The position numbers and the translations under genes were made by a program. The notes under the pieces are model-generated. The model was not told the origin of the DNA. It searched no databases and was given only the letters and a program-made list of their open reading frames with translations. From positions 1-32,481 of the IMG/VR virus record IMGVR_UViG_3300020169_000066: a DNA stretch of 32,481 nt; one strand, given 5' to 3'. This DNA comes from a virus. Positions within the stretch are counted from its first letter, which is position 1; the number at the start of each line of letters is the position of its first letter. Below are positions 16,940 to 32,481 of this stretch, piece after piece.

Positions 16940-17447
16940 GTATTGGTCTCAGCTCATTAATCGGAACGTTGTAGCAGTCCGACTTTACCTTCCATCCATT
17001 AGAAGAGTCAACAGTTCCCTTCTCCATAAAGGTTGCTTTGTCAAAGTATTCGCTCTTTGGCAAGAAACCTAAGATCCATCCTATAGTCATGTCGCTACGT
17101 ACTCTAGTGAATACGTATACGTCACACTTCTGTTTAGTATTGTAGGCTGTGATTGAACACTCATAGTCAAGTCTGGGTGGGAAACCTGTACGCTTTGACT
17201 TTACGTCAATCGTTATGTCACCCTCAAGGATTAAATCATAATCATACGTGTTAGTCCAGCCGCACATTTGGCCTTGATCCTGCAAGTATTCATGAACTAA
17301 ACCTTCACCGACAAACCCTACAAGATTACCAGCTCCGTTTGTTACTGAGTTCTTCAGGGTTCCCATCTCCATTGACTTCTCATGCGCTGCCGTCATGATG
17401 GGCGTTGTCACTACCCGCTCTATAATGTCATCGTAACTAGAAATCAC
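16908..17447 (-). CDS. predicted PD-(D/E)XK nuclease-like protein
   Basis: A 179-residue protein between the primase-helicase and the polymerase. GFVGEGLVHEYL (E48), YDYDLILEG (D71) and ITIDVKSKRT (D81-V-K83) form the E...D...DxK arrangement of PD-(D/E)XK nucleases, so a metal-dependent nuclease fold is likely. Substrate is unknown; the size and the following beta-rich C-terminal part recall small restriction-endonuclease-like folds. The GTG at 17447 is chosen because GGAGG lies nine bases before it inside the helicase gene, giving an 11-base overlap with that gene. The link to DNA metabolism is supported by position. Confidence 0.72.
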   Translation of the reverse strand: MISSYDDIIERVVTTPIMTAAHEKSMEMGTLKNSVTNGAGNLVGFVGEGLVHEYLQDQGQMCGWTNTYDYDLILEGDITIDVKSKRTGFPPRLDYECSITAYNTKQKCDVYVFTRVRSDMTIGWILGFLPKSEYFDKATFMEKGTVDSSNGWKVKSDCYNVPINELRPIHELIKQNADT

Positions 17448-19077
17448 CGTTAATAACCTCCGCTGGTTTGTTTGTCTCTAGCATCCGTCCAGTCACTTTG
17501 TCGTACTTCAAGTAACACGCTGGGCCTGTCAAGCCCGTGTAGCGATTCTTGAGCACCCTGAGTGTGGTCGTATTGCGTACTGCTTCGTCGTCATGCTGCT
17601 GATCCCTCTCAAGACCCAGCACAATGTCCGACAACTGAGCGATGGCCTGTGACCCTCTGAGTTCAGACAAAGAGATCTTACCACCGTCCTCATGAGCCTG
17701 ACCGCTGCTGCGTTTGAGGTGACTGACTAAGAACAGACCTACGCCTAACTCCTGAACCAAAGTCCTGAGTTTTGTCATGATTGCGTCTATGTTCTTGCGC
17801 TCGTCACCGCCTTCCTGACTGCTAACTACGATGGATAAATGGTCTAAAATTATCCACTTACAGTCCATAGCTTTAGCTAAGTATCGGATTTGTGACATCA
17901 AGGTGTCCTCACCCGTAGACCCCCAATGATCCAGCATGAAGAACCGATTGGATCCTAACGTGCTGTCCCAGTAAGGCTTGAAGCTGAGTGTGTCTGCGTC
18001 TTCGTCTAAGTGTAGTGGCTTGTTAGCCGCCATTGACATAATCCCTAATGTAGTGCGTGACAAGGACTCTTCAAGGGCTAGGATGCCTATGTTGTCCTCC
18101 GTAGCGTTAAACAGGAAGTATTCAACCTCCTTGACAAGCTGAGACTTACCCATGCCACTGCCTGACGTAATCGTAACAAGCTCAAAGGGTCTGACGCCCT
18201 TGACAAGCTCGTTAAGACCTGACCACGGATACGGTATGGACTTAACCTTTCGTGAGTTAATGAGATGATCCCAAGTCTCAGATCCTGCCACAATACCGTC
18301 AGGTCTGTGTACTTTAGCGTCCCACCATGCCGCAGTGAAGTCTCGGATCTTGTTAGCCACAAGCATCTCGCTGGGGTCTTTCATGGGTAGCTTACAGATC
18401 TTCAGCTTGTTGGGACTAAACAACGCCTTAACGCTCTCTGTGGCTATCTCACCAGCTTTATCGTTATCAAAGCACAGAACAACATTCTCATAACCCTCAA
18501 GAAACTCTAACTGCTCTTTGACCTCTTTGGCTGCTGAGGCTGCACCAGTCCGTAGGGACACTACGTCCCACTTCCTGTCAAACATCTCGGACACTGACAA
18601 GCAGTCTAGCTCACCCTCAGTGATCGTTATGTACTTGCCTCTACCTCTGCAAGTGTCCTGACCAAACAAGCCCATATTGCTGCCGTAGCTGCCGTTAATG
18701 AGAAACTGTTTGTCCTTGACTATACGCACTTTGGTGCATACAACCTCACCTGTGTTAGCGTCTTTGAAAGGGTAGTGATGCTTTGCTATCTCACCGTTCT
18801 GACCGTACTCTACGCGCACACCGTACTTCTGGCATGTGTCCTTAGACAGTCTCCTGTCTGGTATTGCTGCTATAATTCCTGTCATTTCCGTTACCACCAC
18901 CTGTTTATAGGTTCCATTAGTAAATGAGGAAGATTGTACCGCAGTGTCAGTGGCAGGTTCAAAGTAACCACAACCTGTGCTAAAACAATAAGCGTGGCCG
19001 TCTGAGTATCTGGCTAGATTGTTCCTGCTACTGCACTTTGGACACTCCTCATGCCGTGTAAACTTGTTATCGGACAT
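17437..19077 (-). CDS. DNA primase-helicase (T7 gp4-like)
   Basis: A 546-residue bifunctional replication enzyme. The N-terminal zinc-binding domain uses C12, C15, C31 and C36. The Toprim primase core has E155 (ITITEGELDCL) and the D204-x-D206 pair (LCFDNDKAGE). The C-terminal DnaB/RecA-type helicase has Walker A at 306-312 (GSGMGKS), Walker B ending D412 (WIILDHLS), and SELRGSQAIAQLSD and LKNRYTGLTG as later motifs. It unwinds the fork and lays primers for the polymerase. The ATG at 19077 is chosen since AAGGAG lies nine bases before it; a start 45 bases further upstream would run into the SSB gene. Confidence 0.95.
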   Translation of the reverse strand: MSDNKFTRHEECPKCSSRNNLARYSDGHAYCFSTGCGYFEPATDTAVQSSSFTNGTYKQVVVTEMTGIIAAIPDRRLSKDTCQKYGVRVEYGQNGEIAKHHYPFKDANTGEVVCTKVRIVKDKQFLINGSYGSNMGLFGQDTCRGRGKYITITEGELDCLSVSEMFDRKWDVVSLRTGAASAAKEVKEQLEFLEGYENVVLCFDNDKAGEIATESVKALFSPNKLKICKLPMKDPSEMLVANKIRDFTAAWWDAKVHRPDGIVAGSETWDHLINSRKVKSIPYPWSGLNELVKGVRPFELVTITSGSGMGKSQLVKEVEYFLFNATEDNIGILALEESLSRTTLGIMSMAANKPLHLDEDADTLSFKPYWDSTLGSNRFFMLDHWGSTGEDTLMSQIRYLAKAMDCKWIILDHLSIVVSSQEGGDERKNIDAIMTKLRTLVQELGVGLFLVSHLKRSSGQAHEDGGKISLSELRGSQAIAQLSDIVLGLERDQQHDDEAVRNTTTLRVLKNRYTGLTGPACYLKYDKVTGRMLETNKPAEVINGDF

Positions 19078-19090
19078 GAGAAGATACTCC

Positions 19091-19474
19091 TTAGAATTCG
19101 TCGGGGGTTGAACCACCCTCAAAATCCGCTAGTTTTAAGACCTTTACTCGGTCAAGGTATGTTGACGTACCGTGTACGGGGTGAGGCTTGCCAAAGCTGT
19201 ACACAATGCGCACATGGGATCCTCTGGTAACGTCACCTTCAAATTCCGAACCGTCTTCGTTAAGGATTGGTACGTTGTACTGGCTGACAAACTTACGTTG
19301 TGCCGTACCTTCGTAGTCCTTCAGCTTAACACCGTTACTCTGTAACGCTTCAGCAACGTCCTCTGGCAAGCCTAAGGTCAAGGTGTACTTGCCCGTAGAC
19401 TGTCCCTGCCAGCTGTCATGCTCCCGCAGTGATTGAAAGGCCACTGTACCTTCAGCAATGTACTTATTATTCAT
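19091..19474 (-). CDS. single-stranded DNA-binding protein (T7 gp2.5-like role)
   Basis: A 127-residue protein starting MNNKYIAEGTVAFQSLREHD. It looks like a small beta-barrel protein with aromatic and basic segments (AQRKFVSQYNVPI, SHVRIVYSFGKPHPVHG) and ends in a short acidic tail (ADFEGGSTPDEF), the kind of terminus that lets SSBs contact polymerase and helicase. It directly precedes the primase-helicase gene. A GGAG site lies eight bases before the ATG at 19474; an in-frame TTG six bases upstream was not chosen. Family assignment rests on context, fold impression and the acidic tail. Confidence 0.72.
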   Translation of the reverse strand: MNNKYIAEGTVAFQSLREHDSWQGQSTGKYTLTLGLPEDVAEALQSNGVKLKDYEGTAQRKFVSQYNVPILNEDGSEFEGDVTRGSHVRIVYSFGKPHPVHGTSTYLDRVKVLKLADFEGGSTPDEF

Positions 19475-19486
19475 ACACAAACTCCA

Positions 19487-19741
19487 TTAGTAGTTATCTT
19501 CAAAGTCATTGTCCTTATGGACATAAAACATCATATCATCTTCCGCTATATAGTCAACCTCCCTTTCGTCAAGTAATTGTATTGTGTCAATGTCCGTTAC
19601 CAATCCGTCCATCTCAAGCAATGCTTCAACGGACGCCACCAAACAAGAGCTGCACAAGTCCGTATAGTCTCCGCTACTGGAATCCTTTCGTTTCATTTCA
19701 GTTTCCGTCATGACGTTATTACAGGCTCTGCATCTGCTCAT
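19487..19741 (-). CDS. small zinc-finger-like protein
   Basis: An 84-residue protein starting MSRCRACNNVMTETEMKRKD. A CxxC pair at residues 4 and 7 and a second pair in DLCSSCL form a likely four-cysteine zinc site, followed by an acidic helical tail ending HKDNDFEDNY. The start at 19741 follows the upstream TAA by two bases; an in-frame start at 19768 would lie inside the previous gene. It may bind nucleic acid or a host protein, but the function is unknown. Confidence 0.72.
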   Translation of the reverse strand: MSRCRACNNVMTETEMKRKDSSSGDYTDLCSSCLVASVEALLEMDGLVTDIDTIQLLDEREVDYIAEDDMMFYVHKDNDFEDNY

Positions 19742-19743
19742 GG

Positions 19744-19971
19744 TTATTTCTTCCCTGTCACGTACCAAAAGCGTTCTTCGTACATATCGGACAATGCGCT
19801 TGGGGACATAGTTTCATATTTTTCTTGCAGGAAGTCTCTTAGCATTGAGTGTGCTTCGGACAACCTCAGGCAGTGTAGCTCATCATAAGCCAGCTCTAAA
19901 GCCATCTTTTTAAGATGCTCCGCGCTTACCTCACCATCCATTGGATCTGTTACGTCTAATTCATCATTCAT
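19744..19971 (-). CDS. hypothetical small acidic protein
   Basis: A 75-residue protein starting MNDELDVTDPMDGEVSAEHL, mostly helical (KKMALELAYDELHCLRLSEA, MLRDFLQEKYETMSPSALSD) and ending WYVTGKK. It lies directly after ThyX with one base between genes and is followed two bases later by the zinc-finger-like gene. I recognise no family. Its acidity and small size fit host-modulating or replication accessory proteins, but this is only a suggestion. Confidence 0.65.
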   Translation of the reverse strand: MNDELDVTDPMDGEVSAEHLKKMALELAYDELHCLRLSEAHSMLRDFLQEKYETMSPSALSDMYEERFWYVTGKK

Positions 19972-19972
19972 T

Positions 19973-20620
19973 TTATACTCTCCCTGTTAAACAAGACCAA
20001 CTATAGCTGATCGGTTCATGGTTTACAAGTATCTGGTCAATCTTCTCTGCGACTACTCTGCACTCGTACTGTGCGTCCTCTGAGATCCTCTGAGACACTA
20101 CACGCCCAAAGGCGGCTAAGGATCCAGTCCAGTACCACTCAGTCATCATGGACTGTGGCAAGACCATACGGGCTTGCTCAGGGGCTACCCCAGAGGCCAG
20201 CATGTTGTTGTAGATGGTCTCACAGCGTGTCATCAAGTCCCAGTATTTCTCATCAAACCTTTCTTCGTCCCTGCCTTCAAATGTTTCATTAAGTGAACCT
20301 TGTTTCTTATCTGGCGCACGTTTACGCCATGCCTCTGGTGCGTGAAACTCTGGTGTAAAGTCTACGTACCGCCTAGAAATTTCATTGACGGCCAAGCCTA
20401 TAGAACTCTTATGCAGTTGTCTAGCCACGAACAGCGGCGCTTTAATCCTAAATTGAAGCTGTACGTGTGCGAACGGTGTCCAATGCCCATGAGCTGCCAA
20501 GTACCTAATTAGTTTCTTGTCCCTGCTGCCAAACTCCTCAGACTCCATAGCGAAGGACACCCTCGCTGCATTGGCTACTGTTATGTCTGACCCCATGCTA
20601 TTTAGTAGAGTTACGTTCAT
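19973..20620 (-). CDS. thyX: flavin-dependent thymidylate synthase ThyX
   Basis: A 215-residue enzyme that makes dTMP from dUMP using FAD and methylenetetrahydrofolate. The N-terminus (VTLLNSMGSDITVANAARVS) and HWTPFAHVQLQFRIKAPLFV are typical of ThyX. The signature RHRxxSxNExSxRY is present only in part: RQLHKSSIGLAVNEISRRY keeps the NExSxRY half, but the RHR half is replaced and one residue appears inserted. LPQSMMTEWYWTGSL near the C-terminus matches the usual substrate-binding segment. Length is normal. It supplies dTMP alongside the class II RNR. The start overlaps the stop of the upstream membrane gene. Confidence 0.9.
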   Translation of the reverse strand: MNVTLLNSMGSDITVANAARVSFAMESEEFGSRDKKLIRYLAAHGHWTPFAHVQLQFRIKAPLFVARQLHKSSIGLAVNEISRRYVDFTPEFHAPEAWRKRAPDKKQGSLNETFEGRDEERFDEKYWDLMTRCETIYNNMLASGVAPEQARMVLPQSMMTEWYWTGSLAAFGRVVSQRISEDAQYECRVVAEKIDQILVNHEPISYSWSCLTGRV

Positions 20621-20796
20621 AATTCAAATACCGCCCCTGTTGATTCGTGTAGTATAAAAAAAGTAACCATAACTAGACCCCAAAGGGTGACAAAGATCCA
20701 GAACAGACTGTCCTTTTCTGTGTCCGTTAGATTACCTTCTAAGATGTCGTTAAAGACGCTCACAGCCCACCCAAAGAGCCTTTTAAAGATGTTCAT
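20617..20796 (-). CDS. small single-span membrane protein
   Basis: A 59-residue protein starting MNIFKRLFGWAVSVFNDILE. Residues about 32-49 (FWIFVTLWGLVMVTFFIL) form one strong membrane span; the head is amphipathic and basic. The start overlaps the LuxR-type gene by four bases, and its TGA overlaps the ThyX ATG. Position among early genes suggests an inner-membrane host-interaction protein (for example superinfection exclusion), which is inference only. Confidence 0.75.
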   Translation of the reverse strand: MNIFKRLFGWAVSVFNDILEGNLTDTEKDSLFWIFVTLWGLVMVTFFILHESTGAVFEL

Positions 20797-20984
20797 ACCT
20801 TTACCCCGTTTAGCATTAAAGCCGCCACAGTCCTATTACGTGCGCTTAGTTTTTCTCTAATGTTCTGAACGTGAGCTTTAGCAGTCCGCTCAGAGCTATA
20901 GGTTAAGTTTGCTATCTCTTTGTCAGTGTAGCCCATCTTCAAGTAAGAGATAACCCGCGCCTCTTTGTTTGTAAAGATTATCAT
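20793..20984 (-). CDS. orphan LuxR/GerE-type helix-turn-helix protein
   Basis: A 63-residue protein that is almost only a LuxR C-terminal DNA-binding domain: FTNKEARVISYLKMGYTDKE, then IANLTYSSERTAKAHVQNIR and EKLSARNRTVAALML. The T(N/K)xE...GxTxKEIA..T.RTAKAHVxNIxxKL pattern is the GerE family helix-turn-helix with its dimerising helix. No receiver or autoinducer-binding domain is present. GAGGGGG lies upstream of the ATG, and the ATG overlaps the upstream stop. It is a good candidate for a phage transcription regulator acting on phage or host promoters. Confidence 0.88.
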   Translation of the reverse strand: MIIFTNKEARVISYLKMGYTDKEIANLTYSSERTAKAHVQNIREKLSARNRTVAALMLNGVKV

Positions 20985-21241
20985 AAATTAACCCCCTCTT
21001 CTTTAATGACCAAAGAAACTGTGACTTCGCCGTCAGGCCAGTTCAAGTACGCCGATATTAAGTTTTCTCTAAGATTGGTCAAGATTGTCAATTGATCCTC
21101 AAACTCAAGATCCCAGTCTCGGTAAAGCCCAATAAAGGCCAAGACAATTTTCTCTTTTTGAGTGACGACTCCATTAACTAACTTATGGTCCCAGTGATAG
21201 ACCTCTAAATAATAATCACAATGCTCTTTTTCAATATTCAT
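20981..21241 (-). CDS. hypothetical early protein
   Basis: An 86-residue acidic protein starting MNIEKEHCDYYLEVYHWDHK, with a hydrophobic middle (EKIVLAFIGLYRDWDLEFED) and ending VTVSLVIKEEGVNL. It probably forms an alpha/beta fold. Both ends overlap their neighbours as ATGA, so it is translationally coupled. I recognise no family. It lies in the promoter-proximal part of the leftward operon, where phages place host-takeover genes. Confidence 0.65.
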   Translation of the reverse strand: MNIEKEHCDYYLEVYHWDHKLVNGVVTQKEKIVLAFIGLYRDWDLEFEDQLTILTNLRENLISAYLNWPDGEVTVSLVIKEEGVNL

Positions 21242-21588
21242 GCTGCAACCTCTTCGTCCTGTTCTAAAGTTTCATCATAATTGAACCACTTCTGGTTTGC
21301 GTCCGTCATTTCTTCTAAAATAATAAAGAAGCTTTCAATGTCTATGTCACAATACGATAAGTCTTTTACAAAACGCATCGTCAAGCCATTCTCCTCAAAA
21401 ATCTCTGAATAACATTGTAAGACAATAACGCCCTGATCCCCGTCAGTATAGACACAAACGGGCGGCCCATCCTTTAGGTCATCGTTGATAATCCAATCTG
21501 TTCTGAATGATTGCGACCATTCCAAGAACTCATCAAGGGTTTTATTAATTTTTTTAGCTACGTCTTCTTTTTTTAAATATATACTCAT
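21238..21588 (-). CDS. hypothetical early protein
   Basis: A 116-residue acidic protein starting MSIYLKKEDVAKKINKTLDE. The beginning (KKEDVAKKINKTLDEFLEWS) is helical; the rest is alternating beta and helix (PPVCVYTDGDQGVIVLQCYS, DIDIESFFIILEEMTD) and the tail is very acidic (DETLEQDEEVAA). Its TGA overlaps the next ATG. No family is recognised and no catalytic motif is obvious. Confidence 0.65.
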   Translation of the reverse strand: MSIYLKKEDVAKKINKTLDEFLEWSQSFRTDWIINDDLKDGPPVCVYTDGDQGVIVLQCYSEIFEENGLTMRFVKDLSYCDIDIESFFIILEEMTDANQKWFNYDETLEQDEEVAA

Positions 21589-21848
21589 TCTTGCATGTTC
21601 CTCTTTTCTTCCTCATAAGCTTCAATCATTGCGCTGTTCTGCGCCGCTGTGAGGCTCTCAGGGGTTACAGGCTTACCGCCTACCGTTACATCGCAAAACA
21701 GATACGCTTCGTACAGACAGCTCTCAGGCTCATAGGGCTGATAGTCTTCAAGGTTGAAGCGTATCTCATCCCCATCGTGCATAGTCCAATAATCATGGTC
21801 AGTAAACAGCCCGTGTTTACGATCAGTGAATAAATGCGCATGGTTCAT
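21585..21848 (-). CDS. hypothetical early protein
   Basis: An 87-residue acidic protein starting MNHAHLFTDRKHGLFTDHDY. Many aromatic and acidic residues (FNLEDYQPYEPESCLYEAYL) and a helical tail (AAQNSAMIEAYEEEKRNMQE) are seen. It overlaps the preceding gene by 26 bases and the following gene by four. The family is unknown. Confidence 0.63.
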   Translation of the reverse strand: MNHAHLFTDRKHGLFTDHDYWTMHDGDEIRFNLEDYQPYEPESCLYEAYLFCDVTVGGKPVTPESLTAAQNSAMIEAYEEEKRNMQE

Positions 21849-22011
21849 TGTCTAAAAACTCCTTTAGTTGTGAATGATCGTCTAACAGCATACCGTACCC
21901 TGAGACAATAACAAGTGCATGTCTGTCTAAATCGTACAGCATACCCTCAAGAAACGCAATGGCTTCTTTTTGTTGGGTTAGTAGGAAGGTTCGTCCTTCA
22001 ATCGTTATCAT
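21823..22011 (-). CDS. hypothetical early protein
   Basis: A 62-residue protein starting MITIEGRTFLLTQQKEAIAF and ending EFLDNEPCAFIH. The ATG at 22011 lies inside the end of the upstream 55-residue gene; a GTG 18 bases further upstream is possible. It looks like a small alpha/beta domain. No family is recognised. Confidence 0.6.
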   Translation of the reverse strand: MITIEGRTFLLTQQKEAIAFLEGMLYDLDRHALVIVSGYGMLLDDHSQLKEFLDNEPCAFIH

Positions 22012-22165
22012 TTTCGTACAACCTAGCACGCTGAAAGCTGTTCAATAAGTCCATACATTCGCGCAAGGTAGCCTTAAAGTATTTACCAGTGGACGGGTCA
22101 TCTTGCAGCTGATGCAAGACTCCATAAGCCTGTAGGATCTGTTCGCGGGTTGCTTTGATTGTCAT
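21998..22165 (-). CDS. hypothetical small helical protein
   Basis: A 55-residue protein starting MTIKATREQILQAYGVLHQL, then KYFKATLRECMDLLNSFQRA and ending RLYENDND. It is predicted all-helical. AGGAG lies eight bases before the ATG, and the ATG overlaps the TGA of the promoter-proximal membrane peptide. This clear ribosome-binding site and the overlaps on both sides support a real gene. Confidence 0.68.
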   Translation of the reverse strand: MTIKATREQILQAYGVLHQLQDDPSTGKYFKATLRECMDLLNSFQRARLYENDND

Positions 22166-22260
22166 AGCGAAGCTCCTATCAGATCAAAGGCTAAGACAAA
22201 ACCAAATATGATACCAGTGCCTATGAAGGCTAGAAATGTTTCTCGCATATTTTTAGACAT
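22162..22260 (-). CDS. 32-aa membrane peptide, first gene of the leftward operon
   Basis: A 32-residue peptide starting MSKNMRETFLAFIGTGIIFG, hydrophobic from residue about 9 to 28 (one membrane span). It is the first reading frame after the leftward promoter and its hairpin leader, and its TGA overlaps the next ATG. The evidence is size, hydrophobicity and coupling; no strong ribosome-binding site is seen, so it might also act as a leader peptide. Confidence 0.5.
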   Translation of the reverse strand: MSKNMRETFLAFIGTGIIFGFVLAFDLIGASL

Positions 22261-22305
22261 AATTTTTATTCCTATTTTATGTTTCTATTAGTTCCCCTAA
22301 GGATA

Positions 22306-22359
22306 CCTAAGGCAACTTTAAGATATACTATTAAAGTAATATCTTAAAGCTACTTTAGG
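22306..22359 (-). promoter_or_regulatory. leader hairpin at the 5' end of the leftward transcript
   Basis: In the leftward RNA, CCTAAAGTAGCTTTAAGATA (22359-22340) can pair with TATCTTAAAGTTGCCTTAGG (22325-22306): 19 of 20 positions pair counting two wobbles, with one A-C mismatch, and the tip can extend by TAC/GTA. It begins within about ten bases of the predicted transcription start. The same element, with the same order of sub-motifs, follows the rightward promoter at 24357. The role is unknown: an antitermination site, a 5' RNA-stabilising hairpin or a double-stranded operator are all possible. Confidence 0.7.
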
Positions 22360-22372
22360 ATACCATAGGTAA

Positions 22373-22401
22373 ATTTTAACAGCTACCTCAAAACCTGTCA
22401 A
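22373..22401 (-). promoter_or_regulatory. sigma70-type leftward promoter
   Basis: Read leftward: TTGACA (22401-22396), a 17-base spacer, TAAAAT (22378-22373), with a predicted start near 22366. Five of six -10 positions and all -35 positions match the sigma70 consensus. It lies in the only non-coding gap in the leftward block and should drive the genes from 22260 down to the RNR gene. Confidence 0.75.
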
Positions 22402-22404
22402 GCA

Positions 22405-22608
22405 TTATTTAATGGATTTTAAACCTATGTTATCTTTTAAATAATTTTCATAATCGTTTAAAGCCATTCTAAGGGCTGTCTCTGGATTACAGTCTTTAGG
22501 GAAATACCAGCCTTGAGTAGACCGTGGGAACTTGATGCCTCTTATTTTCACCACGTAGCCCACGGGTTTACCGTTATGTTTAGCCACCTTGCTTATTCTA
22601 GTTCTCAT
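22405..22608 (-). CDS. hypothetical basic protein
   Basis: A 67-residue basic protein starting MRTRISKVAKHNGKPVGYVV. A short beta-rich domain (VVKIRGIKFPRSTQGWYFPK) is followed by a helix (PETALRMALNDYENYLKDNI). The first part has the look of small nucleic-acid-binding domains such as AP2-like or integrase N-terminal folds, but that is only an impression. GGAGG precedes the ATG, and the start overlaps the upstream gene by 11 bases. The leftward promoter begins just after its stop. Confidence 0.65.
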   Translation of the reverse strand: MRTRISKVAKHNGKPVGYVVKIRGIKFPRSTQGWYFPKDCNPETALRMALNDYENYLKDNIGLKSIK

Positions 22609-22912
22609 ATTCCACCTCCATTGCGCTATAGAAAAATATTGATTGTAAAGCTGTATCGTCTGACAAGCAAACCGCCTTAGGGAACATCCCGTCCGCTTCT
22701 AATGCCTCACCCATGCCGTACAGGTCTACAGTATAGACTCCATCGTCTAGGTTGTCGGTTATGTGGTCCGCTATGCTGTAGCGTCCAGAGACAAAATCAA
22801 GCCAGCTCAGTTCGTCGTCTGTCAGCGTGTACTGTTCCCCGTCTTCTAATTGATAGTGGTAGTTCTCAAAGTCGCCGTCCTGTGCCCTTAGGCTGTCGTT
22901 AGTGTGGATCAT
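22598..22912 (-). CDS. hypothetical acidic protein
   Basis: A 104-residue, strongly acidic protein starting MIHTNDSLRAQDGDFENYHY. It has a run of Asp-rich beta-like strands (DDGVYTVDLYGMGEALEADG) and ends AMEVEYEN. It is preceded by GAGG and by the sequence GAGGTAGCATAACATGA, which also precedes the next upstream gene. Its acidity suggests a DNA mimic or protein-binding role, which is a guess. Confidence 0.63.
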   Translation of the reverse strand: MIHTNDSLRAQDGDFENYHYQLEDGEQYTLTDDELSWLDFVSGRYSIADHITDNLDDGVYTVDLYGMGEALEADGMFPKAVCLSDDTALQSIFFYSAMEVEYEN

Positions 22913-22913
22913 G

Positions 22914-23117
22914 TTATGCTACCTCATAAAAGCAATTGACTATAAACCTATGGCGCTGATCTAGCATAAACTCCTTGTCAGCCTCATAGGTAAACCGATT
23001 GAAGTCTAAGGTGTAGCGGTTGTATCCATCCACCTCAACTTGAGTCAGTACCCTGCCATTGAAGGGCGATATTAAATCACCGTGCTTTGCTAGTTCCTGC
23101 TGTCTAGTGTCTCTCAT
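22914..23117 (-). CDS. hypothetical small protein
   Basis: A 67-residue protein starting MRDTRQQELAKHGDLISPFN, then GRVLTQVEVDGYNRYTLDFN and ending FIVNCFYEVA. It seems to be a small beta-rich domain. GAGG precedes the ATG within the junction sequence GAGGTAGCATAACATGA. Function unknown. Confidence 0.63.
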   Translation of the reverse strand: MRDTRQQELAKHGDLISPFNGRVLTQVEVDGYNRYTLDFNRFTYEADKEFMLDQRHRFIVNCFYEVA

Positions 23118-23118
23118 G

Positions 23119-23364
23119 TTATGCTACCTCCTCATCCGTTACGTAATGCTCTGCCAATTCCTGCCAGTTGACAGCGCCTAGATCAATCAAGTCTTTAAAC
23201 ATTGGGGGTACTTCCGCCTCTTCTAGCATATCCCACACTGTCTCTTCTATGTAGTCAGCCATCAAGCTTTGCCCCTCATTGGCTACGTCTTGGAAATACG
23301 CGCCCAACCATAGATTGATAACCCAAGTCTCTCGGTTCGTCCAACCGTTGTAGTCTGTCTTCAT
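23119..23364 (-). CDS. DUF7249-like early protein
   Basis: An 81-residue acidic protein starting MKTDYNGWTNRETWVINLWL. The YNGWTNRETWVINLWLG phrase is a recurrent signature of a small phage protein family; I recall it under DUF7249, function unknown. The ATG at 23364 is chosen because TGGAG lies nine bases before it and because the family usually starts just before this phrase; longer in-frame starts at 23379 and 23487 exist, and the latter would overlap the upstream gene. Confidence 0.72.
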   Translation of the reverse strand: MKTDYNGWTNRETWVINLWLGAYFQDVANEGQSLMADYIEETVWDMLEEAEVPPMFKDLIDLGAVNWQELAEHYVTDEEVA

Positions 23365-23449
23365 GTTGTACTGCTCCATTGTAAAGTTTAGTTTACCCAG
23401 ACGCCCAATATAGGCGTTTCGCTTGAATCTCACAAGCTCATCAGTGGGT

Positions 23450-23650
23450 TTATTTAAAGCTACCCCAATGGTCAATAACGTAATCAATCGCGCTTGCCTT
23501 TGTCTGGGCGACTTTGTAAATGTGGCCGGTGCATTCCTCCAGCACTAGCCATTGCCCGAAGTCGTCACGCTCTACAGAACAAGAGCCGTGATCATGGTCA
23601 ATTCTATATTGCCCTGCTCTAACCTTTTTGATCCCGTTCCTGATGTGCAT
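23450..23650 (-). CDS. hypothetical small protein
   Basis: A 66-residue protein starting MHIRNGIKKVRAGQYRIDHD and ending IDYVIDHWGSFK. It looks like a small beta-sheet with a C-terminal helix (GQWLVLEECTGHIYKVAQTK). AGGAG precedes the ATG. It is the first leftward gene beyond the origin region and needs a promoter there; I see only a weak candidate. Function unknown. Confidence 0.65.
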   Translation of the reverse strand: MHIRNGIKKVRAGQYRIDHDHGSCSVERDDFGQWLVLEECTGHIYKVAQTKASAIDYVIDHWGSFK

Positions 23651-23889
23651 CTTATGTTGCTCCTATATAGTTGATTGATGAACCTATAGTATCAAATGGT
23701 TTAGACAATGCAAGCACTGATTGTTGTCTATATAACGCATCATAAGTAAGACCAATAGTAGTCTGTAGGTCTTCCAATGGTTGCCAATCTGTGATAGGTG
23801 GACATGGGCCGCCATAGGCTCCCCACTAGACCCACACGCCTAGCAATAAGTGTGCCAATGTTGCCAATGGTATGCTTCTTGCACGTTAT

Positions 23890-23936
23890 GCAAGACCCAT
23901 GCCAACTTTAGGCAAGCAATAAGCGTGCCAATAGTT
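23890..23936. repeat. 47-bp direct repeat, copy 1
   Basis: Begins GCAAGACCCATGCCAACTTT and ends GTGCCAATAGTT. It matches copy 2 (23993-24039) at 43 of 47 positions by eye. The second half (GCAATAAGCGTGCCAAT, 23916-23932) has a third relative at 23843-23859. Confidence 0.9.
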
Positions 23937-23954
23937 ATCCACAGGTTATCCACA
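23935..23954. promoter_or_regulatory. two tandem DnaA-box-like sites
   Basis: TTATCCACA occurs at 23935-23943 and again at 23946-23954, 11 bases apart start to start, so on the same face of the helix. This is the exact high-affinity bacterial DnaA box. They lie between the two 47-base repeats. Confidence 0.7.
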
Positions 23955-23992
23955 GGCTACCCCTAGCAACTATCATGCCAACTCTAGGCCCT

Positions 23993-24039
23993 GCAAGATC
24001 CGTGCCAACTTTAGGCAAGCAAGAAGTGTGCCAATAGTT
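23993..24039. repeat. 47-bp direct repeat, copy 2
   Basis: Begins GCAAGATCCGTGCCAACTTT and ends GTGCCAATAGTT; four differences from copy 1, which starts 103 bases earlier. A partial third unit, CATGCCAACTCTAGG, lies between the copies. Confidence 0.9.
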
Positions 24040-24044
24040 TCCAA

Positions 24045-24075
24045 TGGGGTTGCTTTTAGGGGCGGGGGAGGGGGG
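24045..24075 (+). other. G-quadruplex-forming motif
   Basis: Four runs of at least four guanines on the plus strand, with loops of about nine, one and one bases (GGGG, then GGGG-C-GGGGG-A-GGGGGG). This meets the usual pattern for a G-quadruplex and contrasts with the AT-rich surroundings. It sits in the putative origin. Confidence 0.6.
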
Positions 24076-24110
24076 CAGCCATTGGTTATTATTAGTAGTA
24101 CCACCTTAGG

Positions 24111-24181
24111 CACTAAAAAGGGCCATTTTGAACACTAAAGTGCACCAAAAAGAAGCATTTTAGTACACTAATAGGCACTAA
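24111..24181. repeat. four CACTAA iteron-like copies
   Basis: CACTAA occurs at 24111, 24133, 24166 and 24176 within 71 bases of otherwise AT-rich sequence; two copies are preceded by GG. Short repeats of this kind are common where an initiator or regulator binds, but the motif is short enough that chance is not excluded. Confidence 0.4.
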
Positions 24182-24231
24182 TTATTGTGTAATTCTGTAG
24201 ATCAACTTCTTGAATTCCATAGATTTTGTGA

Positions 24232-24267
24232 ATGGTTGACTAAATGGTCAAATGGTGGGCTAATGGT
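24232..24267. repeat. four ATGGT iteron-like copies
   Basis: ATGGT occurs at 24232, 24244, 24252 and 24263, spaced by 12, 8 and 11 bases, just before the rightward promoter. It could be a binding array for a regulator. Low complexity alone may explain it. Confidence 0.35.
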
Positions 24268-24333
24268 AGACACAACAAGCATCGCACAGGTGCGGCTTAA
24301 GACAAATAGTTTAGGGTTTCTACTAGAAAGTTC

Positions 24334-24362
24334 TTGACTTTTAACTAAAAATGTGCTATAAT
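24334..24362 (+). promoter_or_regulatory. sigma70-type rightward promoter
   Basis: TTGACT (24334-24339), a 17-base spacer and a perfect TATAAT (24357-24362), with a predicted start at the G near 24368-24369. It should drive terminase, endolysin and portal genes. The promoter at 28978 shares the same TTGACTTTT and TATAATATAC blocks and the same spacing. Confidence 0.85.
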
Positions 24363-24373
24363 ATACAGGTATA

Positions 24374-24438
24374 CTAAGGAAGCATAAAGAGATTACTTTT
24401 AAGAAATTAATTAAAGTAATATTCTAAAGCTGCCTTAG
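24374..24438 (+). promoter_or_regulatory. leader hairpin at the 5' end of the rightward transcript
   Basis: CTAAGGAAGC (24374-24383) can pair with GCTGCCTTAG (24429-24438) with one mismatch, and ATTACTTT (24392-24399) pairs perfectly with AAAGTAAT (24413-24420) nearer the loop. The order of blocks, GGTAT, CTAA, AGC, ATTACTTT, then TAAAG, TGCCTTAGGTATCCT, is the same as in the leader of the leftward promoter at 22306-22368. It lies between the predicted start and the ribosome-binding site of the terminase gene. Confidence 0.65.
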
Positions 24439-24480
24439 GTATCCTAAAGTATCTCATAGCAATACTAGGAGGCAATACTT

Positions 24481-24870
24481 TTGCTTGAAGAAATACCCAA
24501 AAGAAAACGGGGTAGACCTAAGAAAGTCCTTGTTGAGTCTAACAAGAAGGGTGGTAGGAATGCCGTAGGTAGACCCAAAGGTGACGCTGCTATCATTAAT
24601 GAGTACAAAGCTCGTATGTTAGCCTCCCCTAAGTCACAGAAAGTGTTGGACAGTATCATGAATGCTGCTTTGGACGATGACCATAAGCATCAAGCAGCAG
24701 CATGGAAGTTAATGATGGACAGGATGTTACCCGTAAGCTACTTTGAGAAGGATAAGCTTAATGGAGGTAGGTCTTCCATATCCATCAACATAACGGGATT
24801 AGGTTCCCAAGAAACAACTATTACTGATAATCCTGAAGTTATGGAAGGGGAATACACAGAATATGAGTAA
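24481..24870 (+). CDS. terminase small subunit
   Basis: A 129-residue protein beginning at a TTG, eight bases after a strong AGGAGG (24467-24472), which decides the start. Two AT-hook-like motifs (KRKRGRPKK near residue 7 and GRPKG near 31) suggest DNA-minor-groove binding. The middle (DDDHKHQAAAWKLMMDRMLP) is helical and the tail is acidic (PEVMEGEYTEYE). Its place two genes before the large terminase and its DNA-binding look support a small terminase that recognises the packaging site. It is the first gene after the rightward promoter. The assignment is mainly contextual. Confidence 0.72.
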   Translation: MLEEIPKRKRGRPKKVLVESNKKGGRNAVGRPKGDAAIINEYKARMLASPKSQKVLDSIMNAALDDDHKHQAAAWKLMMDRMLPVSYFEKDKLNGGRSSISINITGLGSQETTITDNPEVMEGEYTEYE

Positions 24871-25216
24871 AGAGTTTAAATATTTTACTTATGAAGAGTT
24901 TAACTGTCAAGAGACAGGTAAGAATGAAATGTCCATAGCTTTTATTCATCGTTTGGATGAACTAAGAGAAAAGTGTGGTTTCCCCTTTACTATCACCAGT
25001 GGCTATAGAGACAGGACTCACAGCGTGGAAGCTAAGAAAAAGACTGTGGGTCAGCATGTCTTAGGTGTGGCTGCTGATATAGCTGTAAAGGACGGTAATC
25101 AAAAGCATGTACTTATTAAACATGCTATGGAAATGGGCTTTAAGGGCGTAGGGGTTGCTAAAACATTTATTCATGTTGATGACAGAAGGGGTGTCCCTGT
25201 GGTTTGGTCTTATTAG
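24863..25216 (+). CDS. M15-family peptidase, probable endolysin
   Basis: A 117-residue zinc peptidase of the M15 (D-Ala-D-Ala carboxypeptidase / L-Ala-D-Glu endopeptidase) type. TITSGYRDRTHS leads into the zinc site GQHVLGVAADI (H65 and D72), and FIHVDDRR supplies H104 and the D106 nearby. It would cut peptidoglycan peptides at lysis. There is no signal peptide or cell-wall-binding domain, so a holin would be needed for export; candidates are at the window start. It is unusual in lying between the two terminase genes. The start overlaps the small terminase by eight bases. Confidence 0.88.
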   Translation: MSKEFKYFTYEEFNCQETGKNEMSIAFIHRLDELREKCGFPFTITSGYRDRTHSVEAKKKTVGQHVLGVAADIAVKDGNQKHVLIKHAMEMGFKGVGVAKTFIHVDDRRGVPVVWSY

Positions 25217-26472
25217 TGTCTGAACTAAATATTAACTTACTGCCGTGGCAGCAGGAGGTCTGGGAAGACCCCACACGCTTTAAGATTGTAGCTGCGGGTA
25301 GACGTACAGGTAAGTCCAGACTTGCAGCATGGTTATTAATTGTTAATGCCTTACAGACTGACAGAGGTACTGTCTTCTATGTAGCCCCTACGCAGGGTCA
25401 GGCTAGGGACATTATGTGGGAAACCCTAATGAGCTTAGGGCAACCCGTCATAGCGTCCAGTCACATTAACAATTTACAAATAAAATTAGTAAACGGTGCT
25501 ACAATCTCCCTAAAGGGTGGGGATAGACCTGAAACTATGCGTGGTGTGTCTTTAAGGTACTTAGTCTTGGACGAGTACGCAGACATTAAGCCTGACGTAT
25601 GGGAACAAATCCTAAGACCAGCCCTAGCTGACCAAAAGGGTCATGCACTATTCATTGGAACCCCTATGGGGCGTAATCACTTCTATGACTTGTATCAGTA
25701 CGCAGAACTAAGTGACGATGAAACGTACAAAGCATGGCACTTTACCAGCTATGACAACCCATTACTAGACGAAGAAGAGATAAATACAGCTAAAAAGTCC
25801 ATGTCCAGCTATGCCTTTAGGCAGGAATTTATGGCTTCCTTTGAAGCCAAAGGCTCAGAGATGTTTAAAGAGGACTGGGTTACTTTTGCAGACAAAAAAC
25901 CAGAACACTACGATTGTTACATCTCAGTGGATTTGGCGGGGTTTCAGGACGTATCTAAGAAGAAGTCTAAAAACACTCGTCTTGATAATACAGCCATTGC
26001 GGTAGTCTTTGTGAATGAAGACGGTTGGTACGTAGAGAACATTATTTATGGTAGATGGACTTTGGACGATACAGCACAGAAGATCTTTCAAGCCGTCAGG
26101 GACTACAAGCCAATCTCAGTGGGTATTGAGAGGGGTATAGCAAAGCAAGCGGTTATGTCTCCCCTAACGGACATGATGAAGCGTAACGGCTTCTTCTTTA
26201 GGGTTGAGGAACTAACTCACGGCAACCAGAAGAAGACTGACCGTATCATGTGGGCCTTACAGGGTCGCTTTGAGAATAATATTATACAGTTAAGCAAGGG
26301 AGAATGGAATAGTCGTTTCTTGGACGAACTCTTTCAGTTCCCCGACCCGCTAACTCACGATGACTTAGTGGACGCCTTAGCTTACGTGGATCAATTAGCC
26401 AAAGTTGCTTACGCAGGGGACTTTGAGCAGTACGATGATTTTGAAACCTTAGACTCCGTAGCAGGATATTAA
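25216..26472 (+). CDS. terL: terminase large subunit
   Basis: A 418-residue packaging motor. ATPase: Walker A near residues 28-34 (GRRTGKS), Walker B LVLDE with D119 and E120, and a coupling motif in FIGTPMGRNHFYDLY. Nuclease: D239 in YISVDLAG, E305 in VGIERG, and D383 in THDDLVDALAY, an RNase H-type metal site. The GTG at 25216 overlaps the stop of the endolysin gene as TAGTG and is preferred; an in-frame TTG at 25204 would lie inside that gene. It drives DNA into the prohead through the portal encoded next. The length is near the lower end of the family. Confidence 0.93.
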   Translation: MSELNINLLPWQQEVWEDPTRFKIVAAGRRTGKSRLAAWLLIVNALQTDRGTVFYVAPTQGQARDIMWETLMSLGQPVIASSHINNLQIKLVNGATISLKGGDRPETMRGVSLRYLVLDEYADIKPDVWEQILRPALADQKGHALFIGTPMGRNHFYDLYQYAELSDDETYKAWHFTSYDNPLLDEEEINTAKKSMSSYAFRQEFMASFEAKGSEMFKEDWVTFADKKPEHYDCYISVDLAGFQDVSKKKSKNTRLDNTAIAVVFVNEDGWYVENIIYGRWTLDDTAQKIFQAVRDYKPISVGIERGIAKQAVMSPLTDMMKRNGFFFRVEELTHGNQKKTDRIMWALQGRFENNIIQLSKGEWNSRFLDELFQFPDPLTHDDLVDALAYVDQLAKVAYAGDFEQYDDFETLDSVAGY

Positions 26473-26476
26473 ATAT

Positions 26477-28495
26477 ATGGAAGATTACAACGAAGAACAC
26501 AAGCCGTTGATGATTGATGAGGCTTTGGAGGATTGGGTCATTACTAAATGTGACTCATGGCGGGATCACTTTGAAGCCAACTATGCACAGAAGTTTGATG
26601 AATACTATCGCCTTTGGCGTGGCATCTGGGCGCAGGAAGACGTAACCAGAGATTCAGAGCGTTCTCGCATCATTAGCCCAGCCCTACAACAAGCCGTGGA
26701 GAGTTCCGTTGCGGAAATTGAAGAAGCAACCTTTGGAAGAGGAAAGTTCTTTGACATCACTGATGATGCTAACGATCCTGACAAAGCTGACATTGTTTAT
26801 CTTCGTAATAATCTGCATAAGGACTTTGAGAAGACTAAGGTTAGAAAAGCTGTTGCGGAGTGTCTTATCAATTCCGCTGTCTTTGGTACGGGGATTGCGG
26901 AAGTTGTTCTTTCCGATGAAAAAGAAATGATGCCAGCCACCCAGCCCATTATGGGAGGGGACTTAACCGCTGTGGGTGTTAACATTGTTGACAGGACTGT
27001 CTGTCGCCTACGCCCCGTAATGCCTCAGAACTTCCTTATTGACCCCGTAGCAACCTCCGTGGAGGACGCTTTAGGCGTTGCTGTGGATGAGTTTGTCTCC
27101 GCACACACCGTTGAGCAGCTACAGGAAGCTGGGGTTTACAAGAAGTGTCACGTAGGTTCAGCAGCCCCAGACTTTGACATTGAGCCAGATCAAGACCTAA
27201 CCACCTACGCAGACGACAAAGTACGTCTTACTAAGTACTATGGGTTAGTACCTGCTTACTTGTTGGCTGACGCTCAGGCTCAGTTAGCTAAGAGTAATGA
27301 TGACGACGACGATGAAGTTGAAGAAGAAATCATTGAGATGGACGGTGAGCTGGAAACTGATTCAGAAGAGTACTACGTAGAAGCCATCGTGGTTATTGCC
27401 AATGGTGGTATTCTTCTCAAAGCGGAAGAAAACCCCTACATGATGCAGGACAGACCCATTGTGGCATTCCCGTGGGACGTTGTACCGTCTCGCTTCTGGG
27501 GTCGTGGAGTCTGTGAGAAGGGCTACAACAGCCAGAAGGCGCTGGACGCAGAGATTAGAGCACGTATTGACGCTCTGGCTCTTACAGTCCATCCTATGAT
27601 GGCTATGGACGCTACACGTATCCCCAGAGGCTCTAAGCCTGAGGTACGTGCGGGTAAGCTTATCCTCACCAATGGTAATCCAGACGAGATCCTAAAGCCC
27701 TTTAACTTTGGTCAGGTCAGTCAGATTACCTTTGCACAGGCTGACGCATTACAAAAGATGGTACAAACCGCTACAGGAGCCATAGACTCTGCGGGTATCT
27801 CAGGGAGTATTAACGGTGAAGCAACGGCTGCTGGTATTAGTATGTCTCTTGGTGCTATTATTAAGCGCCATAAGCGTACACTGATTAACTTCCAAGAGTC
27901 CTTCCTAATCCCCTTTGTAACCAAAGCTGCACACCGATACATGCAGTTTGACCCAGAGCACTATCCTGTCTCTGACTATAAGTTTAATGCTACGTCCACT
28001 TTGGGCATCATGGCGCGTGAGTACGAAGTAACACAGCTTGTACAGCTCCTACAGACCATGAAGGCAGACTCTCCGTTGTATACGTCTTTGATTAGTGCAA
28101 TCATTGATAATATGAACCTGTCCAACCGTGAAGAGCTGATGCAACGCCTAGAGCAAGCAGGACAGCCCACTCCAGAGCAGCAGCAGGTTCAACAAGCCAC
28201 GCAACAGGCTCAGATGGAGTTCCAGCAGTCTCAGACAGCGGCCCTCTCAGGGCAAGCTCAGGAGTCTCAGGCAAGGGCGCAGAAGATTGCTATGGAAACA
28301 CAACTTATGCCTCAGGAGCTTGAGATTGATCGCATGAAGGCCGTGACGACTAACTTAAAGTCTGGCACTGAGGACGACAAAGAGTTTGAGCGTAGACTTA
28401 AAGTAGCCGATATGCTGTTAAAAGAGAAGGCTGCTAAAAAAACTACATCTAACAACACTATCCCAATGCAACCGAGAGGGCCTAATGGTCAGTAA
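26477..28495 (+). CDS. portal protein
   Basis: A 672-residue protein directly after the large terminase. The N-terminus (WRDHFEANYAQKFDEYYRLW) and SRIISPALQQAVESSVAEIE are typical of large podovirus portals. A very acidic insert (DDDDDEVEEEIIEMDGELET) lies around residues 275-295. The clip and stem region is followed by a Gln-rich helical tail (QQVQQATQQAQMEFQQSQTA) that may form the barrel inside the head. It forms the dodecameric channel that the terminase docks to and the adaptor caps. The start is four bases after the terminase stop. Confidence 0.87.
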   Translation: MEDYNEEHKPLMIDEALEDWVITKCDSWRDHFEANYAQKFDEYYRLWRGIWAQEDVTRDSERSRIISPALQQAVESSVAEIEEATFGRGKFFDITDDANDPDKADIVYLRNNLHKDFEKTKVRKAVAECLINSAVFGTGIAEVVLSDEKEMMPATQPIMGGDLTAVGVNIVDRTVCRLRPVMPQNFLIDPVATSVEDALGVAVDEFVSAHTVEQLQEAGVYKKCHVGSAAPDFDIEPDQDLTTYADDKVRLTKYYGLVPAYLLADAQAQLAKSNDDDDDEVEEEIIEMDGELETDSEEYYVEAIVVIANGGILLKAEENPYMMQDRPIVAFPWDVVPSRFWGRGVCEKGYNSQKALDAEIRARIDALALTVHPMMAMDATRIPRGSKPEVRAGKLILTNGNPDEILKPFNFGQVSQITFAQADALQKMVQTATGAIDSAGISGSINGEATAAGISMSLGAIIKRHKRTLINFQESFLIPFVTKAAHRYMQFDPEHYPVSDYKFNATSTLGIMAREYEVTQLVQLLQTMKADSPLYTSLISAIIDNMNLSNREELMQRLEQAGQPTPEQQQVQQATQQAQMEFQQSQTAALSGQAQESQARAQKIAMETQLMPQELEIDRMKAVTTNLKSGTEDDKEFERRLKVADMLLKEKAAKKTTSNNTIPMQPRGPNGQ

Positions 28496-28646
28496 CAGAG
28501 AACTAGAAGAAATTGTAGCACAAGTTAATCGTAACTTTGCTTTACTTTTTGAAAGACTGGAGGTTTTAGAAAGTGCCGAAGAAGAAAGACTCAAAGCTGG
28601 AAAGGGCGGGAGTAAGCGGTTACAACAAGCCAAAGAGAACGCCTAA
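28485..28646 (+). CDS. small coiled-coil protein
   Basis: A 53-residue protein starting MVSNRELEEIVAQVNRNFAL, then LFERLEVLESAEEERLKAGK, a probable coiled coil with a basic tail (GGSKRLQQAKENA). It overlaps the end of the portal gene by 11 bases and the start of the following gene by 74 bases in another frame. Leu heptads and the placement just after the portal suggest a structural accessory, but the overlap lowers certainty. Confidence 0.55.
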   Translation: MVSNRELEEIVAQVNRNFALLFERLEVLESAEEERLKAGKGGSKRLQQAKENA

Positions 28647-28857
28647 CCATCCAACTAAGTCCCACGTAGTCGTTGCCAAAGAAGGTGACAAAACAAAGAC
28701 AATTAGGTTTGGACAGCAAGGTGTGAGTGGTGCGGGTAAAGCCCCTACAACTGAGAAAGAGAAAGCCAGACGCAAGTCATTTAAAGCTCGTCATGCGGCA
28801 AATATTGCAAAAGGTAAAATGTCAGCGGCTTATTGGGCCAACAAGGAGAAATGGTAA
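28573..28857 (+). CDS. conserved basic phage protein (DUF6321-like)
   Basis: A 94-residue, very basic protein starting MPKKKDSKLERAGVSGYNKP (GTG start). KRTPNHPTKSHVVVAKEGDK and TIRFGQQGVSGAGKAP form a characteristic block that recurs in many phages, which I recall as DUF6321; the function is not known. A GGAGG site lies upstream inside the overlapping coiled-coil gene. The tail (ARHAANIAKGKMSAAYWANK) is rich in Lys and Ala. High basicity and late position suggest a packaged DNA-binding or head-associated protein. Confidence 0.8.
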   Translation: MPKKKDSKLERAGVSGYNKPKRTPNHPTKSHVVVAKEGDKTKTIRFGQQGVSGAGKAPTTEKEKARRKSFKARHAANIAKGKMSAAYWANKEKW

Positions 28858-28976
28858 TGCCAAAAGTAGGTGGAAAAAGCTATAGTTACGACAAAGCTGG
28901 TATGGCGGCTGCTAAGAAAGCAGCTAAGAAGACTGGTAAGAAGATGACAATGGCAAGTAAGAAGACTAAAAAATAG
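28857..28976 (+). CDS. 39-aa Lys/Ala-rich basic peptide
   Basis: A 39-residue peptide starting MPKVGGKSYSYDKAGMAAAK and ending in KKTKK; more than a third of residues are Lys. The ATG overlaps the previous stop (TAATG), and GGAG lies upstream. Histone-tail-like composition suggests DNA binding. The next promoter's -35 begins two bases after its stop. Confidence 0.65.
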   Translation: MPKVGGKSYSYDKAGMAAAKKAAKKTGKKMTMASKKTKK

Positions 28977-28977
28977 C

Positions 28978-29006
28978 TTGACTTTTTGTCTAAAATATGG
29001 TATAAT
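28978..29006 (+). promoter_or_regulatory. sigma70-type rightward promoter (capsid unit)
   Basis: TTGACT (28978-28983), a 17-base spacer, TATAAT (29001-29006). The -35 and the TATAATATAC block are identical to those of the promoter at 24334, which argues for a shared phage promoter type. A TGTAC/GTACA inverted repeat with a five-base loop lies just after the predicted start. It should raise expression of scaffold and capsid genes. Confidence 0.85.
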
Positions 29007-29057
29007 ATACCTGTACATTAAGTACACAACTTTAATCTGTCCTTTAAAGGAGAAACA

Positions 29058-29321
29058 GTGAACGATCAAGAATTTGAAGACTATACCAGAAGTATGCAAG
29101 AAATGTTCCGAAGCTCAGGCTGGGAGTATTTCTTAAACGATCTCAGAGGAAGCGTCCCAAACGTCAACTCCGTTGAGGTCACTAAAGACTTAACAGACTT
29201 ATTCTTTCGTAAAGGTCAGCTTGCAATCATGGCTAATGTTCTTAACCTTGAAGCACAGCTAGAAAGCGTTATTGAAGAACGCAATAACCCACAGGACAAC
29301 GATCAGGAGGAAGCCGCTTAA
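29058..29321 (+). CDS. hypothetical head-module protein
   Basis: An 87-residue acidic helical protein starting MNDQEFEDYTRSMQEMFRSS (GTG start), with AAAGGAG seven bases before. It includes GWEYFLNDLRGSVPNVNSVE and ends in an acidic tail (NNPQDNDQEEAA). It is the first gene after the second rightward promoter and abuts the zinc-ribbon gene (TAATG). Function unknown. Confidence 0.68.
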   Translation: MNDQEFEDYTRSMQEMFRSSGWEYFLNDLRGSVPNVNSVEVTKDLTDLFFRKGQLAIMANVLNLEAQLESVIEERNNPQDNDQEEAA

Positions 29322-29554
29322 TGCGTCTTCTTTTTGACTTCAGATGCCCTGACAATCACGTTACGGAGGCCCTAGTAGCCTCCGACGAGACAGAACACAC
29401 CTGTGGTTTATGTAATAAAATTGCAACTAGAATCATATCTCCCGTTCGTTGCTCACTTGACCCCATTAGTGGGGACTTTGTAGGTGCTACTATGAAGTGG
29501 GCTAAACAACGCGAACAGAAGATAAAACTAGAAAGAAAGGCAAACTCGGAGTAG
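29321..29554 (+). CDS. zinc-ribbon-like protein (FmdB-like)
   Basis: A 77-residue protein starting MRLLFDFRCPDNHVTEALVA. C9 and the C28-x-x-C31 pair (HTCGLCNK) resemble a one-and-a-half zinc ribbon of the FmdB regulatory type, with a further Cys in SPVRCSLDP. The rest (FVGATMKWAKQREQKIKLER) is a helical basic tail. In phages this family commonly precedes the scaffold gene and its role is unclear. Confidence 0.7.
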   Translation: MRLLFDFRCPDNHVTEALVASDETEHTCGLCNKIATRIISPVRCSLDPISGDFVGATMKWAKQREQKIKLERKANSE

Positions 29555-29609
29555 ACCTTTCTTATACAAACCATGTCACTCCATAATACGTTAGTACGGA
29601 GATTTAATA

Positions 29610-30395: not shown

Positions 30396-30415
30396 TCTAT
30401 TAAGGAAAAAATATT

Positions 30416-31345: not shown

Positions 31346-31360
31346 TCTATAAAAATATGT

Positions 31361-31396
31361 GTGAGGGAAAGCCTTAGGGCAAGTACCTCACTTTTT
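31361..31396 (+). terminator. intrinsic terminator after the capsid gene
   Basis: GTGAGG (31361-31366) pairs with CCTCAC (31386-31391), enclosing an inner GCC/GGC hairpin, and TTTTTATT follows. It lies between the capsid and fibre genes and probably sets their relative expression. Confidence 0.8.
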
Positions 31397-31432
31397 ATTC
31401 ATTTATTTTTTTAGTAACAGCGGAGAGCAAGT

Positions 31433-32428: not shown

Positions 32429-32443
32429 CAAGGGAATTAAACA

Positions 32444-32481
32444 ATGGCTACAACAATTGTAACTAAAAGCGGCTCAGGTGC
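32444..32481 (+). CDS. 5' end of a further tail-fibre-type gene (partial)
   Basis: Twelve codons are visible, MATTIVTKSGSG, starting at the ATG after a purine-rich GGGAAT; the gene leaves the window. The start is of a kind common in phage fibre or structural proteins whose next residues set a repeat domain, and it follows a fibre-type gene, so a fibre component is likely. The function is not determinable. Confidence 0.6.
   Translation, partial: MATTIVTKSGSG

Follow-up and report, generated by a model that had tools for sequence, protein, structure and literature searches.

Heptamer arrays in 10-bp steps behind both divergent promoters of an uncultured podovirus-like genome: candidate paired operators

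The sequence analysed here (the window) comprises the 32,481 bases of the IMG/VR virus record IMGVR_UViG_3300020169_000066, a podovirus-like genome. Its two main divergent promoters are each followed directly by a leader element, located at 22296..22372 on the minus strand (left leader) and at 24363..24449 on the plus strand (right leader). Both arms of both leaders consist of heptamers close to the palindrome CCTWAGG, and the heptamers follow one another in steps of exactly 10 bp, in the window and likewise in several relatives. This phasing was absent from the earlier note on this DNA, and it is the strongest regularity of the leaders. The reading we favour, at somewhat less than an even chance, is that the leaders are paired operator arrays, on which a dimeric DNA-binding protein would cover the start of both gene blocks and set their timing.

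The left array holds six units on the minus strand: CCTATGG (22363..22369), CCTAAAG (22353..22359) and CTTTAAG (22343..22349), followed after a gap by CTTAAAG (22316..22322), CCTTAGG (22306..22312) and CCTTAGG (22296..22302). The right array holds five on the plus strand: ACTAAGG (24373..24379) and CATAAAG (24383..24389), then TCTAAAG (24423..24429), CCTTAGG (24433..24439) and CCTAAAG (24443..24449). Counted from the -10 element, the unit offsets were 3, 13, 23 / 50, 60, 70 on the left and 10, 20 / 60, 70, 80 on the right. Relatives kept the same step at other offsets, both in left leaders (4, 14 / 43, 53, 63 in L159; 3, 13 / 41, 51, 61 in L160) and in right leaders (64, 74, 84, 94, 104 in L135; 37, 47, 57 / 95, 105, 115 in L110). 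When identity at a lag of 10 was scored with no motif given, the left leader was in the top 0.02% and the right leader in the top 0.7% of window segments.

The arrays also vary in whole units. In two sub-groups of relatives, the left leaders differed by the insertion or deletion of one clean 10-nt unit; the first left unit is absent in L090/L092-type relatives. In the last two 3' units on the left, the middle base was T or A depending on the genome (CCTTAGG or CCTAAGG), which amounts to the same double-stranded site in reversed orientation. Most copies kept one more 3' unit, which lies outside the main stem of the hairpin described below.

The promoters are of the sigma-70 type: TTGACA-17-TAAAAT on the left (22373..22401, minus strand, -10 ending at 22373) and TTGACT-17-TATAAT on the right (24334..24362, plus strand, -10 ending at 24362). 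Only three near-consensus promoters were plausibly placed in the window, at 22373 (minus), 24362 (plus) and 29006 (plus), and the leaders stand directly downstream of the first two (pattern TTGACN-17-TAWAAT). The third, a strong promoter at 28978-29006 within the structural block, is kept in other lineages and has no heptamer array behind it. The predicted transcription starts are near 22366 (left) and 24368 (right). The earlier note had placed a leftward and a rightward element at these two points, and both were found there with their promoters directly upstream.

Its claim that the two elements match each other was likewise borne out. The local alignment score of the left against the right leader was 72, while the maximum of the left leader against 2,132 other sequence windows was 48; the similarity is far above chance. 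The segments 22300-22326 and 24419-24445 form a 27-nt pair with 89% complementarity on the plus strand, within which lies the identical 15-mer TGCCTTAGGTATCCT.

A single long hairpin was predicted for each leader copy, and in the window both stems begin a few nucleotides from the predicted transcription start. The left hairpin is exceptional (-34.1 kcal/mol, z-score -5.8) and beats 99.6% of window segments. Almost all positions of its main stem are paired; two of the pairs are G-U, and a single position is an A-C mismatch. The earlier count of 19 of 20 pairing positions including wobbles was therefore fair. The right hairpin is only moderate (-21.8 kcal/mol, z-score -3.0) and was matched by 22% of 90-nt window segments. 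The hairpin needs no separate explanation, because a run of in-register palindromes is self-complementary by construction. It is probably a by-product of the palindromic units.

Selection on an RNA stem found no support in any of four tests; the alignments were small, and the outcome is an absence of support rather than a disproof. Covarying stem changes in related phages, which the earlier note had proposed as a check, were at shuffle level in the right leaders (0.106 versus 0.096 in shuffles; 104 of 500 shuffles were as high). Applied to the right alignment, RNAalifold failed to return the long hairpin; from the left alignment it gave only a weak stem, with double changes in 2 of 12 pairs and A-C mismatches at others. 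An RNA stem is expected to favour G-U, and the stems of left and right leaders contained 16 G-T and 18 A-C mismatches under scoring that treated both strands alike. Several right copies folded better as the antisense strand. Moreover, part of the stem is broken in the L092/L096-type right leaders, and a search of 4227 Rfam models returned nothing at either leader up to E = 1.

The same arrangement was found well beyond the window. Anchor scans on the portal protein and on the product of the first right gene, the probable small terminase subunit (terS), returned at least 600 IMG/VR stretches each. The two anchors together defined more than 100 loci, and the right promoter and leader stood upstream of terS in nearly all of them. 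Left leaders of the same kind, with a similar promoter before them, were collected from relatives. Each locus was then queried with its own right leader for a second one. Such a leader, 2-4 kb distant on the other strand and preceded by a promoter or a -10, was also present in lineages with quite different units, namely GCAAGAGA inverted repeats (L112, L132, L150) and a 23-nt element (L110/L111); some lineages gave none, and the pattern is shown for part of the group. The mean score of left-right pairs was 53.5 within lineages, 28.7 between lineages and 23.4 for shuffled sequences. Concerted change at two separate sites points to a common reader or to gene conversion. This suggests that both sites are read by a single factor acting in trans, and that each lineage has its own.

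Other leader types were seen upstream of terS. L103-L107 carry long leaders of TTAAAGCG/GCTTTAAAGC repeats with a period of 8, and L094/L095 carry CTACAGTAGTA repeats with a period of about 11.

Under the operator reading, each of the two main divergent promoters would have its array directly at its predicted transcription start or immediately behind it, with palindromic units of 7 bp, five or six in number. A single DNA-binding protein, encoded by the phage or by the host, may occupy these units as adjacent dimers along one DNA face, from about +1 to +80. The bound dimers would hinder promoter escape or initiation. The left transcript (replication) and the right one (packaging and structure) could in this way be timed or balanced jointly, and the transcript hairpin would arise as a by-product of the in-register palindromes. 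Protein binding, repression and timing are what we infer from the arrangement of the sites.

Several points weigh against paired operators. The heptamer was spotted in the same sequences in which it was counted, and significance is more fairly judged from the lag-10 identity scored without a motif. Strict 10-bp phasing holds within the arms of lineage A; it is not strict between the arms or in other lineages, some of which have a repeat period of 8 or 11, and in the GCAAGAGA lineage the phasing is looser and some leaders form two tandem hairpins. From arm to arm the distance, 27-29 or 38-41 bp in lineage A and 25-44 bp in lineage B, does not correspond to whole helical turns. No unit lies over the -35 and every one is situated downstream of the -10, as would equally be expected of an RNA element. 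As to the protein, a ribbon-helix-helix partner was rejected when a search of 16 records with PF01402 gave no match, and gene clustering between and around both leaders yielded no regulator candidate common to all lineages. Close relatives also keep both arrays while lacking the gene for the LuxR-type protein (see below).

A small zinc-ribbon-like protein (19487-19768) was noted as common to lineages A and B despite their low overall similarity. Its gene lies on different sides of the left leader in the two lineages, and the protein may be a regulator or bind RNA polymerase.

The strongest competing reading is a nut-type factor that acts on RNA. Here, a lineage-specific phage factor would bind the leader RNA and either modify the host RNA polymerase or act on the transcript, with antitermination or anti-pausing of both long operons as the outcome. 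The elements lie wholly in the transcribed leader and in the same sense in both transcripts, with hairpins in most lineages. A unit common to left and right within a lineage and different between lineages is also what such a factor would produce; boxB/N pairs differ among lambdoid phages in a lineage-specific manner. Free spacing between the arms is as RNA loops would allow. A way of modifying the host polymerase would fit with the search for a T7-type RNA polymerase in ten records, which gave no match, as did the control searches. Against this stand the right-leader covariation at shuffle level, the equal G-T and A-C counts and the right copies that fold better as antisense. The region 13000 to 32481 contained 17 intrinsic-terminator-like sites versus 14.5 in shuffles, i.e. 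no excess, and no N-like protein was named in PHROGs and Pfam scans of the main open reading frames (ORFs). The strict 10-nt phasing within the arms would also go unexplained. We therefore regard the nut-type reading as rather unlikely, and the put- or nut-like antitermination that the earlier note had put first was not supported by the stem tests, the Rfam and terminator searches or the single hairpin. An unlikely extension of the same idea is that the leaders are RNA control elements of a new class, specific to each lineage. In this view, an abundant marine phage group with no recognised RNA polymerase of its own would mark both main transcripts with matched, fast-evolving tags, and a co-evolving phage factor would read them and reprogram the host polymerase.

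It is improbable that the leaders are 5'-terminal hairpins that stabilise the transcripts against 5'-end-dependent decay. Any stable stem would serve this function, and the likeness of the two copies would come from duplication or gene conversion. The window stems do begin close to the predicted starts, and the transcript of the 29006 promoter also begins with a small hairpin (GTAC-ATTAA-GTAC). In the GCAAGAGA lineage, however, the stem is preceded by 10 or more unpaired nucleotides. Many window segments fold as strongly as the right hairpin, and the right stem is partly broken in the L092/L096 type. Such hairpins would account neither for the 10-nt phasing nor for units outside the stem, nor for a unit common to both leaders in each lineage.

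Binding sites for packaging initiation (pac/cos) or replication, e.g. for the small terminase, are more improbable still. Small terminases bind phased repeats near their own gene, the right array stands immediately upstream of the probable terS, and DnaA boxes lie ~420 bp upstream of the right leader. However, every pair compared includes a second array at a distance of 2-4 kb that follows a promoter or a -10, the TerS proteins are 63-98% identical across lineages with completely different units, and contig ends showed no sharp pile-up at the array.

LuxR-type domains bind palindromes, and the window encodes a stand-alone LuxR-type (GerE) protein of 63 amino acids (20793..20984, minus strand; GerE domain, 44 bits), the gene for which is also present in L155 and in the L013/L096 and L014/L097 contigs. 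Operators for this particular protein are very unlikely, since the relative L156/L088 lacks precisely the GerE gene, is 92-94% identical on both sides of it and keeps both arrays, and L087 and L159 keep both arrays with no GerE gene found in the covered L-to-SSB stretch. Hence, of the earlier idea of paired LuxR-type operators, the operators are favoured by phasing and units, while the LuxR-type partner is disfavoured.

The right block runs on the plus strand from 24481 and encodes the probable terS, endolysin, terL, portal, scaffold and major head protein. Its first gene (24481..24870) had no family match above the cut-off and no match among the isolate phages searched; the product is not LuxR-like and has an AT-hook-like KRKRGRPKK stretch. 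It is probably the small terminase by its position before the endolysin and large terminase genes. Just before this gene, at 24448-24479, a possible ribosome-site hairpin was seen with the geometry GUAU-CUCCU-loop-AGGAG-3 nt-AUAC, which has a background rate of ~13%. The compensatory variants CCUUA/UAAGG and UCUUU/AAAGG occurred in about a dozen distinct relatives.

The left block, on the minus strand, comprises small genes, the GerE protein, thymidylate synthase, SSB, primase-helicase, DNA polymerase and ribonucleotide reductase. Upstream of the left leader there are five small ORFs in the leftward direction (22405-23650). The two leaders had been described as the start of the two main transcripts; the promoter-leader pairs are there and are kept in relatives, but the series of leftward genes does not begin with the left leader.

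Where the ends of the two blocks converge, a GC-rich hairpin (AGGGGGC-ATTGC-GCCCCCT, 11454-11472) followed by TTTTGTTT on the minus strand is likely a terminator. Two consensus DnaA boxes (TTATCCACA) stand 11 bp apart at 23935-23954, within a repeat-rich intergenic stretch (23690-24300) of GCCAAT/TTTAGGC repeats. Most contigs of lineage A and two of lineage B likewise have tandem DnaA boxes, at 340-780 bp upstream of terS. The stretch is a probable replication origin using host DnaA.

No integrase or lysogeny gene was seen among the ORFs scanned. In the isolate phage search, the portal protein matched only HMO-2011-type and other phages, at about 21-28% identity, and its best matches to cultured phages reached about 23-28%. 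None of the isolate phages searched is closely related to this phage group. The group is large, uncultured and probably marine, and hundreds of IMG/VR contigs fall into it.

For such phages, a cis signal that changes fast and is matched behind the two main promoters points to a single regulator acting in trans. This regulator could be found by tracing the gene that varies in step with the repeat unit. If it sets superinfection immunity, the repeat unit would be an immunity type that can be read from sequence in uncultured phages.

Among known systems, the nut sites of lambda (boxA/boxB) resemble the leaders in that a lineage-specific sequence is common to the left and right copies. Unlike nut, the leaders have no small 15-nt boxB hairpin and no recognised N-like partner; boxA was not searched systematically. 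The putL and putR sites of phage HK022 are also two related elements of ~70 nt behind two promoters, one of them at the (here predicted) transcription start; put forms two stem-loops, and putL begins at the transcription start (PMC9378689). The leaders differ from put by their single hairpin, by the lack of covariation and by a sequence that changes completely between lineages of the same group. The put RNA binds the zinc-binding domain of the RNA polymerase beta' subunit. A direct put-like mechanism is less likely than a nut-like RNA factor, because put has two stem-loops and because a direct contact with the host polymerase should not change completely between related phages.

The tandem-site operators of the ribbon-helix-helix repressors Arc, MetJ and RelB resemble the favoured operator arrays in having short repeats, which are occupied next to one another on a single DNA face. 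In Escherichia coli, RelB dimers bind four 6-bp repeats on one DNA face, with protections interrupted by 9-10 bp (PMC2812701). The likeness is one of site architecture only, and the leaders differ from these systems in that no ribbon-helix-helix protein with PF01402 was found in the 16 records. The OL and OR operators of lambda and its heteroimmune relatives share with the leaders the multi-copy palindromes at two main divergent promoters, lineage-specific and common within a genome. Lambda operator sites are 17 bp long, lie about 24 bp apart and overlap the -35 and -10. The units described here, in contrast, are 7 bp long, 10 bp apart and solely downstream of the -10. Multi-site operators common to two promoters are thus an already known kind; new are the 7-bp units, their 10-bp steps, their position downstream of the -10 and their turnover from lineage to lineage.

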